DNA from: Roseofilum acuticapitatum BLCC-M154
GTDB taxonomy: Bacteria > Cyanobacteriota > Cyanobacteriia > Cyanobacteriales > Desertifilaceae
Length of the DNA stretch: 64,000 nt
NCBI RefSeq assembly: GCF_030068475.1
Contig: NZ_JAQOSP010000134.1
Coordinates: 1 to 64,000 of the forward strand
Direction: 5' to 3'
Below are positions 2,052 through 14,584 of the stretch, one piece after another. Position numbers and translations under genes: made by a program. How positions within the stretch are numbered: position 1 is the first letter of the stretch; each line of letters opens with the position of its first letter. Below the pieces are notes generated by a model that saw only the letters and a list, made by a program, of their open reading frames with translations, was not told where the DNA came from and made no database searches.

Positions 2052-2212
2052 ATACAGCGCTTTGCGCTGTAGTGGGGGAGTGGGGGAATGGGGAAATGGG
2101 GGAATGGGGGAATGGGGGGAGCAAACAATAGACTTGGTAGAAGCTCTGAGCTGTTCTAGATATCGTTAAAAACCATCATTAATGTACCTCATAGCAGAGG
2201 AAACTGCTGTAT
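2052..2212. mobile_element. Miniature element bounded by ATACAGC/GCTGTAT, copy 1
   Basis: The left end is ATACAGCGCTTTGCGCTGTA and the right end contains CATAGCAG-AGGAAA-CTGCTGTAT. The ends are imperfect inverted repeats of each other (ATACAGC...TTT... against the reverse complement ATACAGCAGTTT...). A second copy with the same ends lies at 13321-13486. The interior here is a G-rich minisatellite, so only the ends are conserved. It encodes no protein. MITE-like identity is inferred from the paired ends and recurrence within the window. Confidence 0.55.
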
Positions 2213-9422: not shown

Positions 9423-11150
9423 TTAAGGGGACTGATGATAGCGTTGACGTTTTTTTGCCGCTTGCACCAATAAGGATTGGGCAAAGGATAGGGCTTCAAT
9501 CGCCGAGTTTCCTCCGGTGAGTTGAGCAAGTTCTTGGGAGCGTTGTTGCTCGTTGAGGGTTGTGACTCGAATGACGGTTCTAGGATCGTTGATGTCTGTT
9601 TCGGTAATGGTTTCTTTACGCACTTGTAAGTGGCGATCGGCGAGGGAGGCAATCAGGGGTTGATGGGTAACACAGAGAACTTGATGATGTTGGGAGAGAT
9701 GATGGAGTTTGTCGGCGATCGCCTCTGCCACTCGTCCCGATACCCCAGCATCGATTTCGTCAAAGACGAGGGTATTGACGGGGTTAATCTGGGAGAAACA
9801 GGCGGTTAGGGCTAACAAAAAGCGGCTCATTTCTCCTCCGGAAGCGGTAGTGGCTAGGGGTTGGATGGGTTCTCCGGGGTTGGTACTGATGCCGAAGGTG
9901 ATGCGATCGCCCCCTGTGGCTGTTATGGGGATAGCACTCAGAGCGACTTTGAATTGCACTTTATCCATGGCTAGGGGTTTGAGTTCCTTGACCAAACGCG
10001 CCTCTAGTTTAGCGGCTGCCTTTTGCCGTTGTAAGTGTAGCTGATTACATAATGTTTTTAATTGCTCTAGGGCTTGTTGATAGTTTTTTTCCAATTGTTC
10101 TAAGGATTCACTGCTGGCAGTGAGGTCTTGGAGTTCGGTTTGAATGCTGTGCCAGTAGGTCAAGCTCTCGGATAGGGATGGGCCATATTTACGACAGATT
10201 TGTTTGAGTTCAATGATGCGTGATTCGACCCTATCGAGCTGTTCGGGGTCAGTTTCCAGGCGATCGCCATAGGCATTGATTTGTTGTCCGGCTTCTTCGA
10301 CTTGCACGAGGGCTTCATTTACTAAGTCTAGAATCGGTTGCAGTTGGCGATCGTAGGGTAAAATATCATCGAGTAGGGTTTTGGCTTGTCCGAGCAGATC
10401 GGCAGCCGCTAGGGAGCGATCGCCCTGATAGAGAGCTTGATAAATTTGATAACTTTTCTGTTGCAGTTCTACACTGTGGGAGAGCCGTTGACTCTCTTGT
10501 TCGAGTTCGCCTAATTCATCGGCGGTTGTTAATTGGGCCTGATTTAATTCTTTGAGTTGATATTCTAAAAGGTCGATCCGTTGCAGTCGAGATTGTTCAT
10601 CTTGGCGCTGGCGCTGAAGTTGAGTCTTCAGTTTTTGACTGGTTTCATAGGCAATTGCCACTTGTTGCTGTAGGGCTAAGAGTTCATCCCCCCCATAGAG
10701 ATCTAACCATTGCCTTTGTCGTTGAGGATCTCCGAGTTGTACCGTTTGCCCTTGAGCCGTGAGACTGGCTAACCCTTCCCGCAGCGCTTCCATTTGTCCA
10801 CGGTTCACCAGAATTCCATTTAAGCGCGATCGCGATCGATATGTCTCTTCATAGATTTTGATCTCCCGACTACAAGTTAATGTTTCGTCTTCGAGTGGCT
10901 CAATGTCCTGTTCTTGCAGCCATTTCCCGATGAAGGGAGAGAGGGTAAAGGTCGCTTCAATTAACCCCTGAGAAGCTCCAGAACGGATCGCTTTCGGGTT
11001 TAACTTACCTCCTAGGGCAGCATCCAGGGCATCTAGAATGATCGATTTCCCAGCTCCAGTTTCCCCGGTGAACACCGTTAAGCCTGGGCCAAAGTCCAAT
11101 TCTAGGCGATCGATTAAAGCAAAATTCTCAATTTTCAGGGAGATTAACAT
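9423..11150 (-). CDS. recN: DNA repair protein RecN
   Basis: RecN is an SMC-like ATPase that gathers broken DNA ends for RecA-dependent double-strand break repair. It has an N-terminal Walker A (GETGAGKS, near residue 30), long coiled-coil arms through the middle (about 150-380) and a C-terminal half with the ABC signature TASGGEMSRF, Walker B VFDEIDAGVSG and the THQPLIA switch. I place the start at the methionine of MLISLKIENFALID (11150), the usual family N-terminus; an in-frame methionine seven codons further upstream is possible. The total is about 575 residues, the normal length. Confidence 0.95.
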   Translation of the reverse strand: MLISLKIENFALIDRLELDFGPGLTVFTGETGAGKSIILDALDAALGGKLNPKAIRSGASQGLIEATFTLSPFIGKWLQEQDIEPLEDETLTCSREIKIYEETYRSRSRLNGILVNRGQMEALREGLASLTAQGQTVQLGDPQRQRQWLDLYGGDELLALQQQVAIAYETSQKLKTQLQRQRQDEQSRLQRIDLLEYQLKELNQAQLTTADELGELEQESQRLSHSVELQQKSYQIYQALYQGDRSLAAADLLGQAKTLLDDILPYDRQLQPILDLVNEALVQVEEAGQQINAYGDRLETDPEQLDRVESRIIELKQICRKYGPSLSESLTYWHSIQTELQDLTASSESLEQLEKNYQQALEQLKTLCNQLHLQRQKAAAKLEARLVKELKPLAMDKVQFKVALSAIPITATGGDRITFGISTNPGEPIQPLATTASGGEMSRFLLALTACFSQINPVNTLVFDEIDAGVSGRVAEAIADKLHHLSQHHQVLCVTHQPLIASLADRHLQVRKETITETDINDPRTVIRVTTLNEQQRSQELAQLTGGNSAIEALSFAQSLLVQAAKKRQRYHQSP

Positions 11151-11271
11151 AGACGGCATACTTACCAGCAAAGCACTTGATCCGGGAAACCGAATGAAAT
11201 TGATCGAGCTTGTGGGAGGGCAAATTGTTACAATTACTTTACAAAGCGATCGATCTGTCCCACCTCAAGCC

Positions 11272-13341
11272 ATGAATGTCAATATGTCATCTTCATCTTC
11301 CCATCAACAGGGGTTGTCAACTGTTGAGGACTCTGGAAGTCCCCATGATTCTTCTTCTGCACATTTTAGTCCTATGTCAGAACCGACGCTCATACCCAAT
11401 GATTCAGCCGTAGAACCCCCGGAAATCCATTACGATCCCCTGGAGTTAGTCGCCTTTTACCGTTCCCGTATCTGGGAAGTTTGGGGACGAATCATCGCCC
11501 TAGTCTGGTCTTTTTTGGGCTTAGTGGTAGGGTTATGGTGGGATAAACGAACCGGAAGTTCGGAAAACCAGCAACGACGCAGGGCGGTTCAGTTGCGGGA
11601 GACCTTAACCCGATTAGGGCCAGCTTATATTAAGGTCGGGCAAGCTTTATCCACCCGGCCGGATTTGCTGCCCCCTGTGTTTTTAGAGGAGTTAACCCGG
11701 CTTCAAGACCAACTGCCCCCGTTTCCCAATGAGGTGGCGTACCAGTTTATTGAGGAAGAGTTAGGCGATCGCCCCGAATTTATCTATGCTGAAATTAGTC
11801 CTAAACCGGTAGCGGCTGCTTCTTTGGGTCAGGTTTACAAAGGTAAGCTCAAGACTGGGGAAATCGTCGCCATTAAGGTTCAACGACCCGATTTACGGGA
11901 ACGAATTTCCCTCGATCTGTATATTCTTCGTAGTTTAGCCGGTTGGATACAGAAAAGTTGGCGCTTACGCAGCGATCTCGTCGCTATTGCTGATGAATTT
12001 GGCGCTCGCATTTATGAAGAAATGGACTATACCCATGAAGGCAGAAATGCGGAGCGCTTTGAGCAATTGTATGGCTATCTGCCGGATATTTATGTGCCCC
12101 GAATTTATTGGCAATATACCAACCGTCGGGTATTAACCATGGAATGGATTACGGGCACAAAATTAACAGATTTAGAGAAAATTCGCCAGCAAGGTTTAGA
12201 TGCGTCCTATTTAATTGAAGTGGGGGTTGAATGTTCCCTACGGCAATTGCTCGAACATGGCTTTTTCCATGCCGATCCCCATCCGGGTAACTTACTGGCT
12301 TCTGGGGATGGCAAATTGGTCTATCTGGATTTTGGCATGATGAGCGAAGTTAAGCCTTATCAACGCTATGGGTTGATTGAGGCGATCGTTCATTTAGTCA
12401 ATCGAGATTTTTCTGCCTTGGCCCATGATTATGTCAAATTAGAATTTCTCACGCCAGATACGGATTTAACCCCGATTATTCCCGCTTTATCTCAGGTTTT
12501 TAATGATGCTCTGGGCGCATCTGTGGCGGAGTTAAACTTTAAGAATATTACCGATCAACTTTCTCAGGTGATGTATGATTACCCCTTTCGAGTTCCCGCC
12601 TATTATGCCTTGATTATCCGCTCTCTGGTGACTTTAGAAGGGATTGCCATTAATGTAAATCCCAATTTTAAGGTGTTGAGTAAGGCCTATCCTTATGTGG
12701 CTAAACGGTTATTAACGGATCAGTCCCCAGAATTGCGAACCTCTTTAAGGGAGTTATTATTCAAAGATGGTAGTTTTCGCTGGAATCGGCTGGAAAACTT
12801 GCTCAAAAATGCCCGCAATAGCCAAGATTACGATCTAGATGTGGTGTTGAATCAGACCATTGATTTTCTGTTTTCCGATCGAGGGAGTTTTATTCGCGAT
12901 CGCATCGTTGAAGAAATTGTTAAAAGTGTGGATGCTCTGGGACGAAATACTTTAGAAAATGTCACCTATCGCTTCCGGAAAACAGTGGGGATGAATGGAC
13001 AAAATCCAGTTCAACCGGTTTCTGTAACCGATCCAGAAGATCGGAAGAATCTTGAACATATTCAGCGAATTTTACAAATTGTGCAGGAAACTCAAGGGTT
13101 TGATCCGATGAAGATTGTGCCGTTATTGCCCAAAGTGCTGTTTAAACCTGAAACTCAGCAAATGGGACAACAAATTGCGAGTGGATTGGCTCAACGGGTT
13201 TTGGCGCGGTTTATTCGGGAAGTTTTGCTGAGTGAAGAGATAGAAAAGGGGACTTCTGAAAAAAAGTGGGCATCGGTTCCTAAGTCAGATTCTCCTCCTT
13301 TGGCTTTACCTGCTGCGGTGATACAGCGCTTTGCGCGGTAA
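11272..13341 (+). CDS. ABC1/UbiB-family atypical kinase-like protein
   Basis: The about 689-residue protein carries the UbiB signature: KVGQ in the GPAYIKVGQALSTRPDLLPP segment, an Ala-rich loop (PVAAASLGQVYKG), the VAIKVQRP lysine, HADPHPGN and DFG. In cyanobacteria such proteins associate with prenyl-lipid or quinone metabolism and thylakoid or plastoglobule-like membranes; the substrate is unknown. A hydrophobic segment lies near the N-terminus (ALVWSFLGLVVGLWW). Open frame extends back into recN, but the start at 11272 follows an AT-rich stretch typical of a promoter; 11194 and 11374 are alternatives. The last codons (IQRFAR, stop) fall inside a dispersed repeat beginning at 13321. Confidence 0.88.
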   Translation: MNVNMSSSSSHQQGLSTVEDSGSPHDSSSAHFSPMSEPTLIPNDSAVEPPEIHYDPLELVAFYRSRIWEVWGRIIALVWSFLGLVVGLWWDKRTGSSENQQRRRAVQLRETLTRLGPAYIKVGQALSTRPDLLPPVFLEELTRLQDQLPPFPNEVAYQFIEEELGDRPEFIYAEISPKPVAAASLGQVYKGKLKTGEIVAIKVQRPDLRERISLDLYILRSLAGWIQKSWRLRSDLVAIADEFGARIYEEMDYTHEGRNAERFEQLYGYLPDIYVPRIYWQYTNRRVLTMEWITGTKLTDLEKIRQQGLDASYLIEVGVECSLRQLLEHGFFHADPHPGNLLASGDGKLVYLDFGMMSEVKPYQRYGLIEAIVHLVNRDFSALAHDYVKLEFLTPDTDLTPIIPALSQVFNDALGASVAELNFKNITDQLSQVMYDYPFRVPAYYALIIRSLVTLEGIAINVNPNFKVLSKAYPYVAKRLLTDQSPELRTSLRELLFKDGSFRWNRLENLLKNARNSQDYDLDVVLNQTIDFLFSDRGSFIRDRIVEEIVKSVDALGRNTLENVTYRFRKTVGMNGQNPVQPVSVTDPEDRKNLEHIQRILQIVQETQGFDPMKIVPLLPKVLFKPETQQMGQQIASGLAQRVLARFIREVLLSEEIEKGTSEKKWASVPKSDSPPLALPAAVIQRFAR

Positions 13342-13486
13342 TGAGGTGCAGTAGTAAAAGATCCCCCCTAACCCCCCTTAATAAGAGGGGGGAATAAGAA
13401 AGTCCCCCTTTTTTAAGGGGGATTTTCCGCAAGCGGACATGAAAGGGGGATCAAAGTCTACCGCATAGCAGCGAAAACTGCTGTAT
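13321..13486. mobile_element. Miniature element bounded by ATACAGC/GCTGTAT, copy 2
   Basis: The left end ATACAGCGCTTTGCGCGGTA matches the copy at 2052 in its first 16 bases. The right end CATAGCAG-CGAAAA-CTGCTGTAT matches 2190-2212 apart from two loop positions. Left-end ATACAGC...GCGGTA and right-end TACCGC...GCTGTAT are inverted repeats. The left end lies inside the coding sequence of the UbiB-like gene and supplies its stop codon (13339-13341). The interior holds a second repeat (13360-13452). MITE-like nature is inferred. Confidence 0.6.
13360..13452. repeat. GATCCCCC-ended nested inverted repeat
   Basis: Terminal GATCCCCC (13360-13367) pairs with GGGGGATC (13445-13452). Inside are CCCCCCTTA/TAAGAGGGGGG (about 13372-13392) and CCCCCTT/AAGGGGG stems (about 13404-13421). 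A palindromic 21-mer, identical to bases 5-25, sits at 13424-13444 directly before the right terminal arm, as if inserted into it. No coding capacity. Confidence 0.7.
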
Positions 13487-13618
13487 AGTCCTTTGCCCTA
13501 GGCAAAATGCAAGAATCTGAAGCAGTGGAAAGTGGTTTTTCCTTTTGTGAATTGTTCTAGAGTTAGGTTGGGTCTAGCGACGACCCAACCTAAATAGTAT
13601 TGGAGCAAGAACTAGGAG

Positions 13619-14554
13619 CTAATTGGCTAGAACAGCATCTTCCTGTTGTTTGCGCTCAATATCTTGATCGGAGGGGAATTTAACATCCCAAACTAAACCG
13701 AGACGTTGCAAGATAGAAATCACCCACCAGGAAAAGTCTACTTGCCACCAATTCATGCTAAACCGAGCTGAGTAAGGAAAAGCGTGATGGTTGTTGTGCC
13801 AACCTTCTCCTAGGGTAATAATGGCAATTAGGGGATTATTGCGGCTGAAATCTCCGGTTTTGAAGGGTTGAGTTCCCCACAAATGGCAAATGGAGTTGAC
13901 GGTGAGGGTTCCTTGGAAACTGAGCATAATTCGTAATGCTCCGCCCCAGATTAGGCCTCGCAATGCTCCTTCCCAAGTGCCACAAATGGCTCCACCGATG
14001 GCAGCCGGAAGGACTAAACCCAGGACTATCCAGACTAGACAGAAACGATCGACCCATTGCACGACGCGATCGCTTTTTAAATCATTGATATAGGGTAAGG
14101 GTTCCACCCAAGTAGCACCCACCATCCAACCAAAATGGCCGTGCCAAAATCCTTGTATTTTCCCCCAGAAGCTTTCTCCATGTAGATGGGGGGAATGAAC
14201 GTCTCCGGGTTGATCGCTGTAGAGGTGATGCTGACGATGATGGCTTACCCAACTGGCGATCGTTCCTTGAGTCGATATGCAAGCACAAATACCGATTAGG
14301 GCTTTCATAATTGGCCCGGTTTTAAAGGCTTTATGGGAGAATAGGCGATGATATCCTACACTCACCCCTAGAATGGTGAGAATGTAAAAACCGACGAGTA
14401 AGGCGATGTCAAGGGGAGCAACCGATTTTTCCCACCAGATTACTGCGGCGATCGCCACTAGGAACCCAATTCTAGGAAGGGTTAGGGTGATCGTGTTAAT
14501 CACTCTGCGGCGATTAAGATCGGCTACGGCTTCAGAACTACTGTAGTTGGTCAT
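13619..14554 (-). CDS. desC: Acyl-lipid/acyl-CoA delta-9-type fatty acid desaturase
   Basis: A membrane di-iron desaturase that introduces the first double bond into acyl chains, a key to membrane fluidity in the cold. It shows the three histidine boxes of the family: HRLFSH, HHRQHH (in SWVSHHRQHHLYSD) and HNNHH (in EGWHNNHHAFPYSARF), with hydrophobic segments near 20-35, 45-62 and 175-215. I chose the ATG at 14554, which has AAAAGG at a good distance; a GTG ten codons upstream (14584) is the alternative. The resulting length is about 311 residues. The delta-9 assignment rests on box sequences and length, not on substrate evidence. Confidence 0.88.
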   Translation of the reverse strand: MTNYSSSEAVADLNRRRVINTITLTLPRIGFLVAIAAVIWWEKSVAPLDIALLVGFYILTILGVSVGYHRLFSHKAFKTGPIMKALIGICACISTQGTIASWVSHHRQHHLYSDQPGDVHSPHLHGESFWGKIQGFWHGHFGWMVGATWVEPLPYINDLKSDRVVQWVDRFCLVWIVLGLVLPAAIGGAICGTWEGALRGLIWGGALRIMLSFQGTLTVNSICHLWGTQPFKTGDFSRNNPLIAIITLGEGWHNNHHAFPYSARFSMNWWQVDFSWWVISILQRLGLVWDVKFPSDQDIERKQQEDAVLAN

Positions 14555-14584
14555 CCAGGAACCTTTTATCAAATCATTAAGCAC

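Follow-up and report, generated by a model that had tools for sequence, protein, structure and literature searches.

The window, by which we mean the whole 64,000-nt stretch of the Roseofilum acuticapitatum BLCC-M154 genome analysed here, carries a UbiB-like gene and a fatty acid desaturase gene facing it, with a short repeat lying across the 3′ end of the first. A second copy of the repeat is found elsewhere in the window. The features of the locus, together with a related element from sister genomes, are the following:

11038–13341, plus strand: UbiB-like/ABC1 atypical kinase gene, taken as the longest ORF with a predicted start, TAA at 13339–13341 (PF03109, 8e-84)
13321–13486, plus strand: mobile repeat copy (putative MITE) of 166 bp, from own-genome BLAST matches, inverted ends and end-pattern counts
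13321–13347, plus strand: left terminal inverted repeat, from inverted-repeat comparison
13322–13323, no strand: left TA, putative target-site duplication (43 of 44 paired copies flanked by TA left and right; single TA in the empty sites of another copy)
13324–13483, plus strand: predicted element core CAGC...GCTG, 160 bp, as implied by the TA duplication
13324–13341, plus strand: element-encoded tail QRFAR and stop (codons CAG CGC TTT GCG CGG TAA), read from the sequence letters, tail absent from relatives
13360–13452, no strand: internal repeat nested in the element, GATCCCCC...GGGGGATC, whose arms form a hairpin, from the sequence, its inverted arms and the RNA fold
13425–13444, plus strand: nested 20-mer TTCCGCAAGCGGACATGAAA, recurring exactly at 6–25
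13460–13486, minus strand: right terminal inverted repeat, from inverted-repeat comparison
13484–13485, no strand: right TA, putative target-site duplication, from paired copies and empty-site comparisons
13619–14584, minus strand: fatty acid desaturase gene facing the UbiB-like gene (PF00487, 6.7e-21)
2052–2212, plus strand: second family copy, alike at both ends but not in its interior, from sequence and end-pattern comparison
L251 1001–2032 and L252 1366–2396, sister Roseofilum genomes: ~1.03 kb IS630-family element with TACAGCGCTTTGCGCTGT-type ends

The copy at 13321–13486 starts with ATACAGCGCTTTGCGC and its end is the reverse complement of ATACAGCAGTTTTCGC. Its terminal inverted repeat is 27 nt long, with 74% identity. 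Most copies have a left end that forms a hairpin by itself (TACAGCGC-TTT-GCGCTGTA). Further repeats had been predicted to be nested inside the element, and this was borne out by the inverted arms GATCCCCC/CCCCCTT and by the 20-mer with its exact recurrence near the start of the window. Variants of this 20-mer also occurred in the flanks of other family copies. The original prediction had paired the copy with 2052–2212 by their shared ends, and correctly so: the left 16-mer is identical, and the right end of 2052–2212 is one mismatch away from the pattern. With up to two mismatches, ATACAGCNNTTTNCGC was found six times in the window, versus a mean of 1.26 in shuffled sequences (largest count 5; 0 of 100 shuffles reached 6). 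These two copies account for four of the six matches, one at each of their ends. A tandem array of a ~43-bp unit (CTGCGAGCGAGACGCTCCCACTCCTTCAATCTATTGTTTTCCC) occupies 1800–2051 and abuts the second copy at 2052.

In the whole genome, the 19-nt ATACAGCNNTTTNCGCNGY was found 155 times with at most one mismatch, versus 0 for the reversed control. BLAST with the element against its own genome gave at least 60 full-length and partial matches (40 of the 366 first-look candidates were scored). Among the fetched own-genome loci, which are a subset of the genome, 44 loosely paired copies of 102–251 bp were recognized; family copies mostly measure 130–170 bp. Several own-genome contigs start or stop inside repeat copies. 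The family ends were present in all six same-genus genomes (own included), and one of 23 other genomes had a single match. At the level of the order, the exact 19-mer end TACAGCGCTTTGCGCTGTA was found in 12 of 291 genomes, namely all six of the genus and six others. The 9-Mb genome G246, from another family of the same order, had 71 exact matches of this 19-mer. The interiors varied. Copies L065, L072, L078 and L081 have ends in common with L001 and interiors unrelated to it (GGGGAATGGGGG runs, AGTAATGAG repeats, GATCCCCC palindromes), which look as if different dispersed repeats had been captured between one pair of ends.

The ORF at 11038–13341 ends in LPAAVIQRFAR, its final codons being GCG GTG ATA CAG CGC TTT GCG CGG TAA. 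The CAG codon is the exact first triplet of the element core, which makes QRFAR and the TAA repeat sequence, whether they came by simple insertion or by recombination between copies. The whole of IQRFAR had originally been assigned to the repeat; this stands for QRFAR and the stop, but not for the isoleucine, whose ATA codon consists of a host A and the TA target. The reading frame stops five codons into the core, and an in-frame insert of the Rickettsia palindromic element type was rejected for this closed frame.

The protein ends were surveyed in 108 relatives, 28 from one set and the 80 top-ranking of 176 in another, with at least five contigs common to both sets as judged by length. The contig of one relative stops before the protein end, leaving 107 readable ends. 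None of these 107 had QRFA or QRKA within the last 30 residues, a count that rests on tblastn anchoring of the protein ends. This agrees with the original claim that the protein end derives from the repeat, from which different C-termini were expected in an alignment of relatives; IQRFAR was conserved at none of the readable ends of repeat-free strains. The same-genus orthologs ended in LPAAVVSIK (two), LPAAAVVSMES and LPAAAVVSMEP, and a more distant one in LAPAAFSAKS. The nearest named orthologs, from Roseofilum halophilum BLCC-M91 and the MAG UBA2566, were both 89% identical. Among the genomes examined, the repeat-derived UbiB tail is private to the source genome. That IQRFAR should be the ancestral C-terminus, resembling the repeat by chance or convergence, is hardly credible, given that the tail is missing from all readable relatives and that the identity extends across the entire repeat (copy L002, 96% over positions 1–165), beyond the 18 coding bases.

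The LALPAA stretch, located just before the end in four of five same-genus UbiB proteins, is intact in the source protein. A [LVIF]Px[AVST] motif, after a variable linker, lies at most 13 residues from the C-terminus in 57 of the 99 distinct UbiB-like ends of relatives. On both grounds, the C-terminal change is probably neutral.

TA was found on both sides of 43 of the 44 paired copies, a count that is not independent, since TA and the outer A/T are partly built into the search pattern. For four copies from the own genome, both flanks were joined and searched in the sister genomes, and the junction was aligned with one, none or two TAs. The site of copy L214 (G000:C91) was uninterrupted in four of five same-genus genomes, and the fifth matched one side only. 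At the L214 junction, a single TA was better than none or two in all four comparisons. Over all tested copies, one TA gave the best fit in 10 of the 12 pairings of occupied with empty sites; at copy L247, no TA scored 2 points higher in two of four. With one TA best in the empty-site comparisons, the alignments indicate insertion of the element at TA, with duplication of this dinucleotide, and an element core of CAGC...GCTG.

IS200/IS605 elements and REP/TnpA-REP systems insert without target duplication, beside a fixed short motif. Such an origin was suggested by the left-end hairpin, and it was ruled out by the TA duplication and by the IS630 partner described below. The empty-site comparisons pointed to duplication of TA, and the flanks varied beyond the A/T next to it.

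Elements of ~1.03 kb with the ends TACAGCGC-TTT/AAA-GCGCTGT were found in two sister genomes (L251 in G001 and L252 in G002), and an IS630-family end match was also noted at L262. One ORF of L251 had the IS630 helix-turn-helix domain (PF01710, 1.4e-6). The next had a DDE_3 endonuclease domain (PF13358, 1.8e-34) and was above the cut-off for IS630 in NCBIfam. In the L251/L252 element these two ORFs lie in two frames, with a run of nine As near their junction, suggesting a programmed frameshift. A DNA search with the L251 element matched 13321–13353 of the window at 88% identity. Among 40 scored candidates out of 135, the IS element had 12 matches in the own genome, all of them to its ends, and a search of that genome for a DDE_3 transposase found none. 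The host thus appears to carry miniature copies without a transposase, unless the latter was lost from the draft assembly. The sister genome G004 had a 167-bp copy (L277 1636–1802, identical with L326 2824–2990, G004:C42) with both ends and an interior of ~150 bp matching the IS end at 76%, which is likely an internal-deletion derivative of the IS. An IS5/IS427 partner (PF13340) was also considered and rejected: it had matches in four of six same-genus genomes, and none of the loci L263–L278 had both ends around a transposase.

The repeat is thus short and transposase-less, has terminal inverted repeats, and occurs in dispersed copies with occupied and, at L214, empty sites, as MITEs do. The TA duplication at sister copies and the ends in common with an IS630-family element point to the group of origin. 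On these features, 13321–13486 is best read as an IS630/Tc1-mariner-type MITE.

As RNA, the 166 nt of the repeat fold at −75.6 kcal/mol, far better than shuffled sequences (z −7.4). Three terminator-like sites (1.0 expected) were recognized on the minus strand at 13389–13422, inside the repeat and downstream of the facing desaturase, the transcript of which the repeat may end. Both properties would also suit an ancient, non-mobile structured 3′ untranslated element, serving mRNA stability or termination. We consider such an origin very improbable: the sequence is absent after ubiB in all same-genus orthologs, and its copies stand at unrelated genes, with empty sites in relatives. Moreover, no terminator-like site was found in the repeat on the ubiB strand, and the Rfam search of the repeat gave only matches below the gathering scores.

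The surroundings of the repeat differ between genomes. Compared with five same-genus genomes, the UbiB-like gene and the desaturase (11038–14584) are convergent neighbours only in the source genome. In all five others the desaturase is on a contig other than that of ubiB, and no desaturase was encoded in the available sequence beside ubiB. The right flank (13487–13616) had no match in another genome among the matches listed, and the stretch right of the element had none beside the ubiB or desaturase genes of relatives. Homology to relatives on this side begins only at ~13601, at the desaturase 3′ end. With the desaturase away from ubiB in the five genomes and the right stretch unmatched there, the history of this locus includes, judging from gene order, a rearrangement in the element or close to it.

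Such a junction could have formed by recombination between two copies, one on the ubiB side and one on the desaturase side. The tail would still be repeat-derived, and the copy would be a recombinant. The 167-bp family copy in G004 lies ~0.4 kb past the desaturase 3′ end, which is also the side of the repeat in the window, and for this reason simple insertion is put forward less firmly. Recombination would, however, still need the prior insertion of a copy next to or into ubiB, and no copy was found within 200 bases beyond the desaturase in four close relatives. Relatives that are element-free at this site likewise differ from one another downstream of ubiB, so that a rearrangement needs no element. 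We regard recombination between copies as a serious rival to simple insertion, though on balance a rather unlikely one. The original claim of an insertion at the gene’s 3′ end therefore stands in part: the empty sites indicate that the family inserts at other sites, whereas at ubiB a rearrangement belongs to the locus history.

Simple insertion remains the reading we prefer. It is likely that 13321–13486 is a non-autonomous IS630/Tc1-mariner MITE, inserted into a TA at the ubiB 3′ end by a cut-and-paste event and supplying the tail and stop of the protein. An IS630-family transposase would act on the TACAGC... ends of the non-autonomous element, which would be pasted into the UbiB-like gene at a TA of its 3′ end, with duplication of the TA. 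Translation would then pass from the host/target ATA into the element codons CAG CGC TTT GCG CGG and, after these five, end at the element TAA. Such an insertion would leave the conserved portion of the protein with its LALPAA untouched, and was hence probably tolerated. If the core and one TA are taken out on paper, the junction reads ATA TAG, which would correspond to an ancestral AAVI-stop end and a five-residue extension. The empty site predicted between ubiB and the desaturase is GTGATATAG. We infer, from sequence comparison, the arrival of the ubiB copy by simple transposition, its mobilisation by this IS and the neutrality of the tail.

The UbiB-like gene is not a one-off, as two more genes of the own genome end in the repeat. 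At L085 (G000:C60), a gene ends in VEAIAC-IQRFAL-stop, by the same reading of the same element end. This insertion is shared with the sister genome G005, and three element-free orthologs from the genus end differently there. At L214 (~1003–1141), the final DIS of a small ORF, read as LDIS in four relatives, is replaced by a 31-residue ending DTALCAVV..., of which the 30 residues after the D are repeat-encoded. Copies L004, L250 and L022 lie a few bases downstream of a stop codon.

Based on mechanical ORF calls, 13 of 38 copies lay within −15 to +20 bp of an ORF stop, and three of 38 inside ORFs. The near-stop fraction was 13/35 for the copies versus 169/1010 for background TAs from these flanks that lay outside ORFs (Fisher p 0.005). 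In this test, six of the 44 copies were dropped for short flanks, and the ORFs were uncurated. The ORF length cut-off excluded L214, and the count includes the window copy at 2052, which is sited in the repeat array. We do not rely on the skew, because it would also arise if insertions in genes and promoters were selected against. It is doubtful that the family prefers gene ends, with TAA and TAG as TA targets, and that ends reading IQRFAL-stop or IQRFAR-stop make insertions harmless, repeatedly rewriting C-termini in the genus.

RUP, a repeat of Streptococcus pneumoniae, is thought to use an IS630 transposase. TA-flanked MITEs are common in bacteria, and the Roseofilum repeat resembles RUP, Correia/NEMIS and ERIC in its ~100–200 bp length, inverted repeats, 5′-TA-3′ termini and strongly base-paired transcripts (PMC2229807). 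The likeness is one of description, not of sequence; the hosts are unrelated, and the Roseofilum interiors are variable and made of other repeats. For the IS630-family ISY100 of Synechocystis, insertion at TA with duplication was shown experimentally (PMC2170065). The TA target and its duplication, the terminal inverted repeats, and the IS630 helix-turn-helix and DDE_3 domains of the sister-genome element place the repeat beside ISY100 and the IS630-Tc1-mariner group (PMC2170065). Unlike IS630 insertion sequences, the window element has no transposase, and the ORFs of its full-length relative lie in two frames. Nezha and the Anabaena MITEs are likewise cyanobacterial, and they are likened here by host group, not by end sequences.

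The effect on the protein has parallels as well. In Coxiella burnetii, the QMITE insertions in functional annotated genes were all at 3′ ends, and QMITE1/QMITE2 exchange C-terminal residues for a tail of their own ahead of the stop (PMC5896051), much as the repeat supplies the ubiB tail here. They belong to a different family, and one of the two is flanked by 7–9 bp repeats instead of TA (PMC5896051). Rickettsia palindromic elements are also ~150-bp repeats translated within host proteins, but their insertions are in-frame fusions, while the Roseofilum element ends the frame (PMC10969869). The donation of C-terminal residues by MITEs is thus already established, in Rickettsia and Coxiella. Neither a Roseofilum MITE nor a prior description of the repeat was found in titles, abstracts and listings, which is weak evidence, as most subscription papers were outside this scope. 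The repeat family seems to be undescribed, whereas MITE insertion at gene ends is itself well-precedented.

With element-free relatives available for comparison, the ubiB locus is a clear case of a MITE that provides the terminus of a conserved protein. The locus further links one particular IS630-family element with a Roseofilum repeat family that appears to be undescribed. In genomes of this sort, annotated C-termini may stem from repeats, and it would be wrong to take them as conserved protein sequence.
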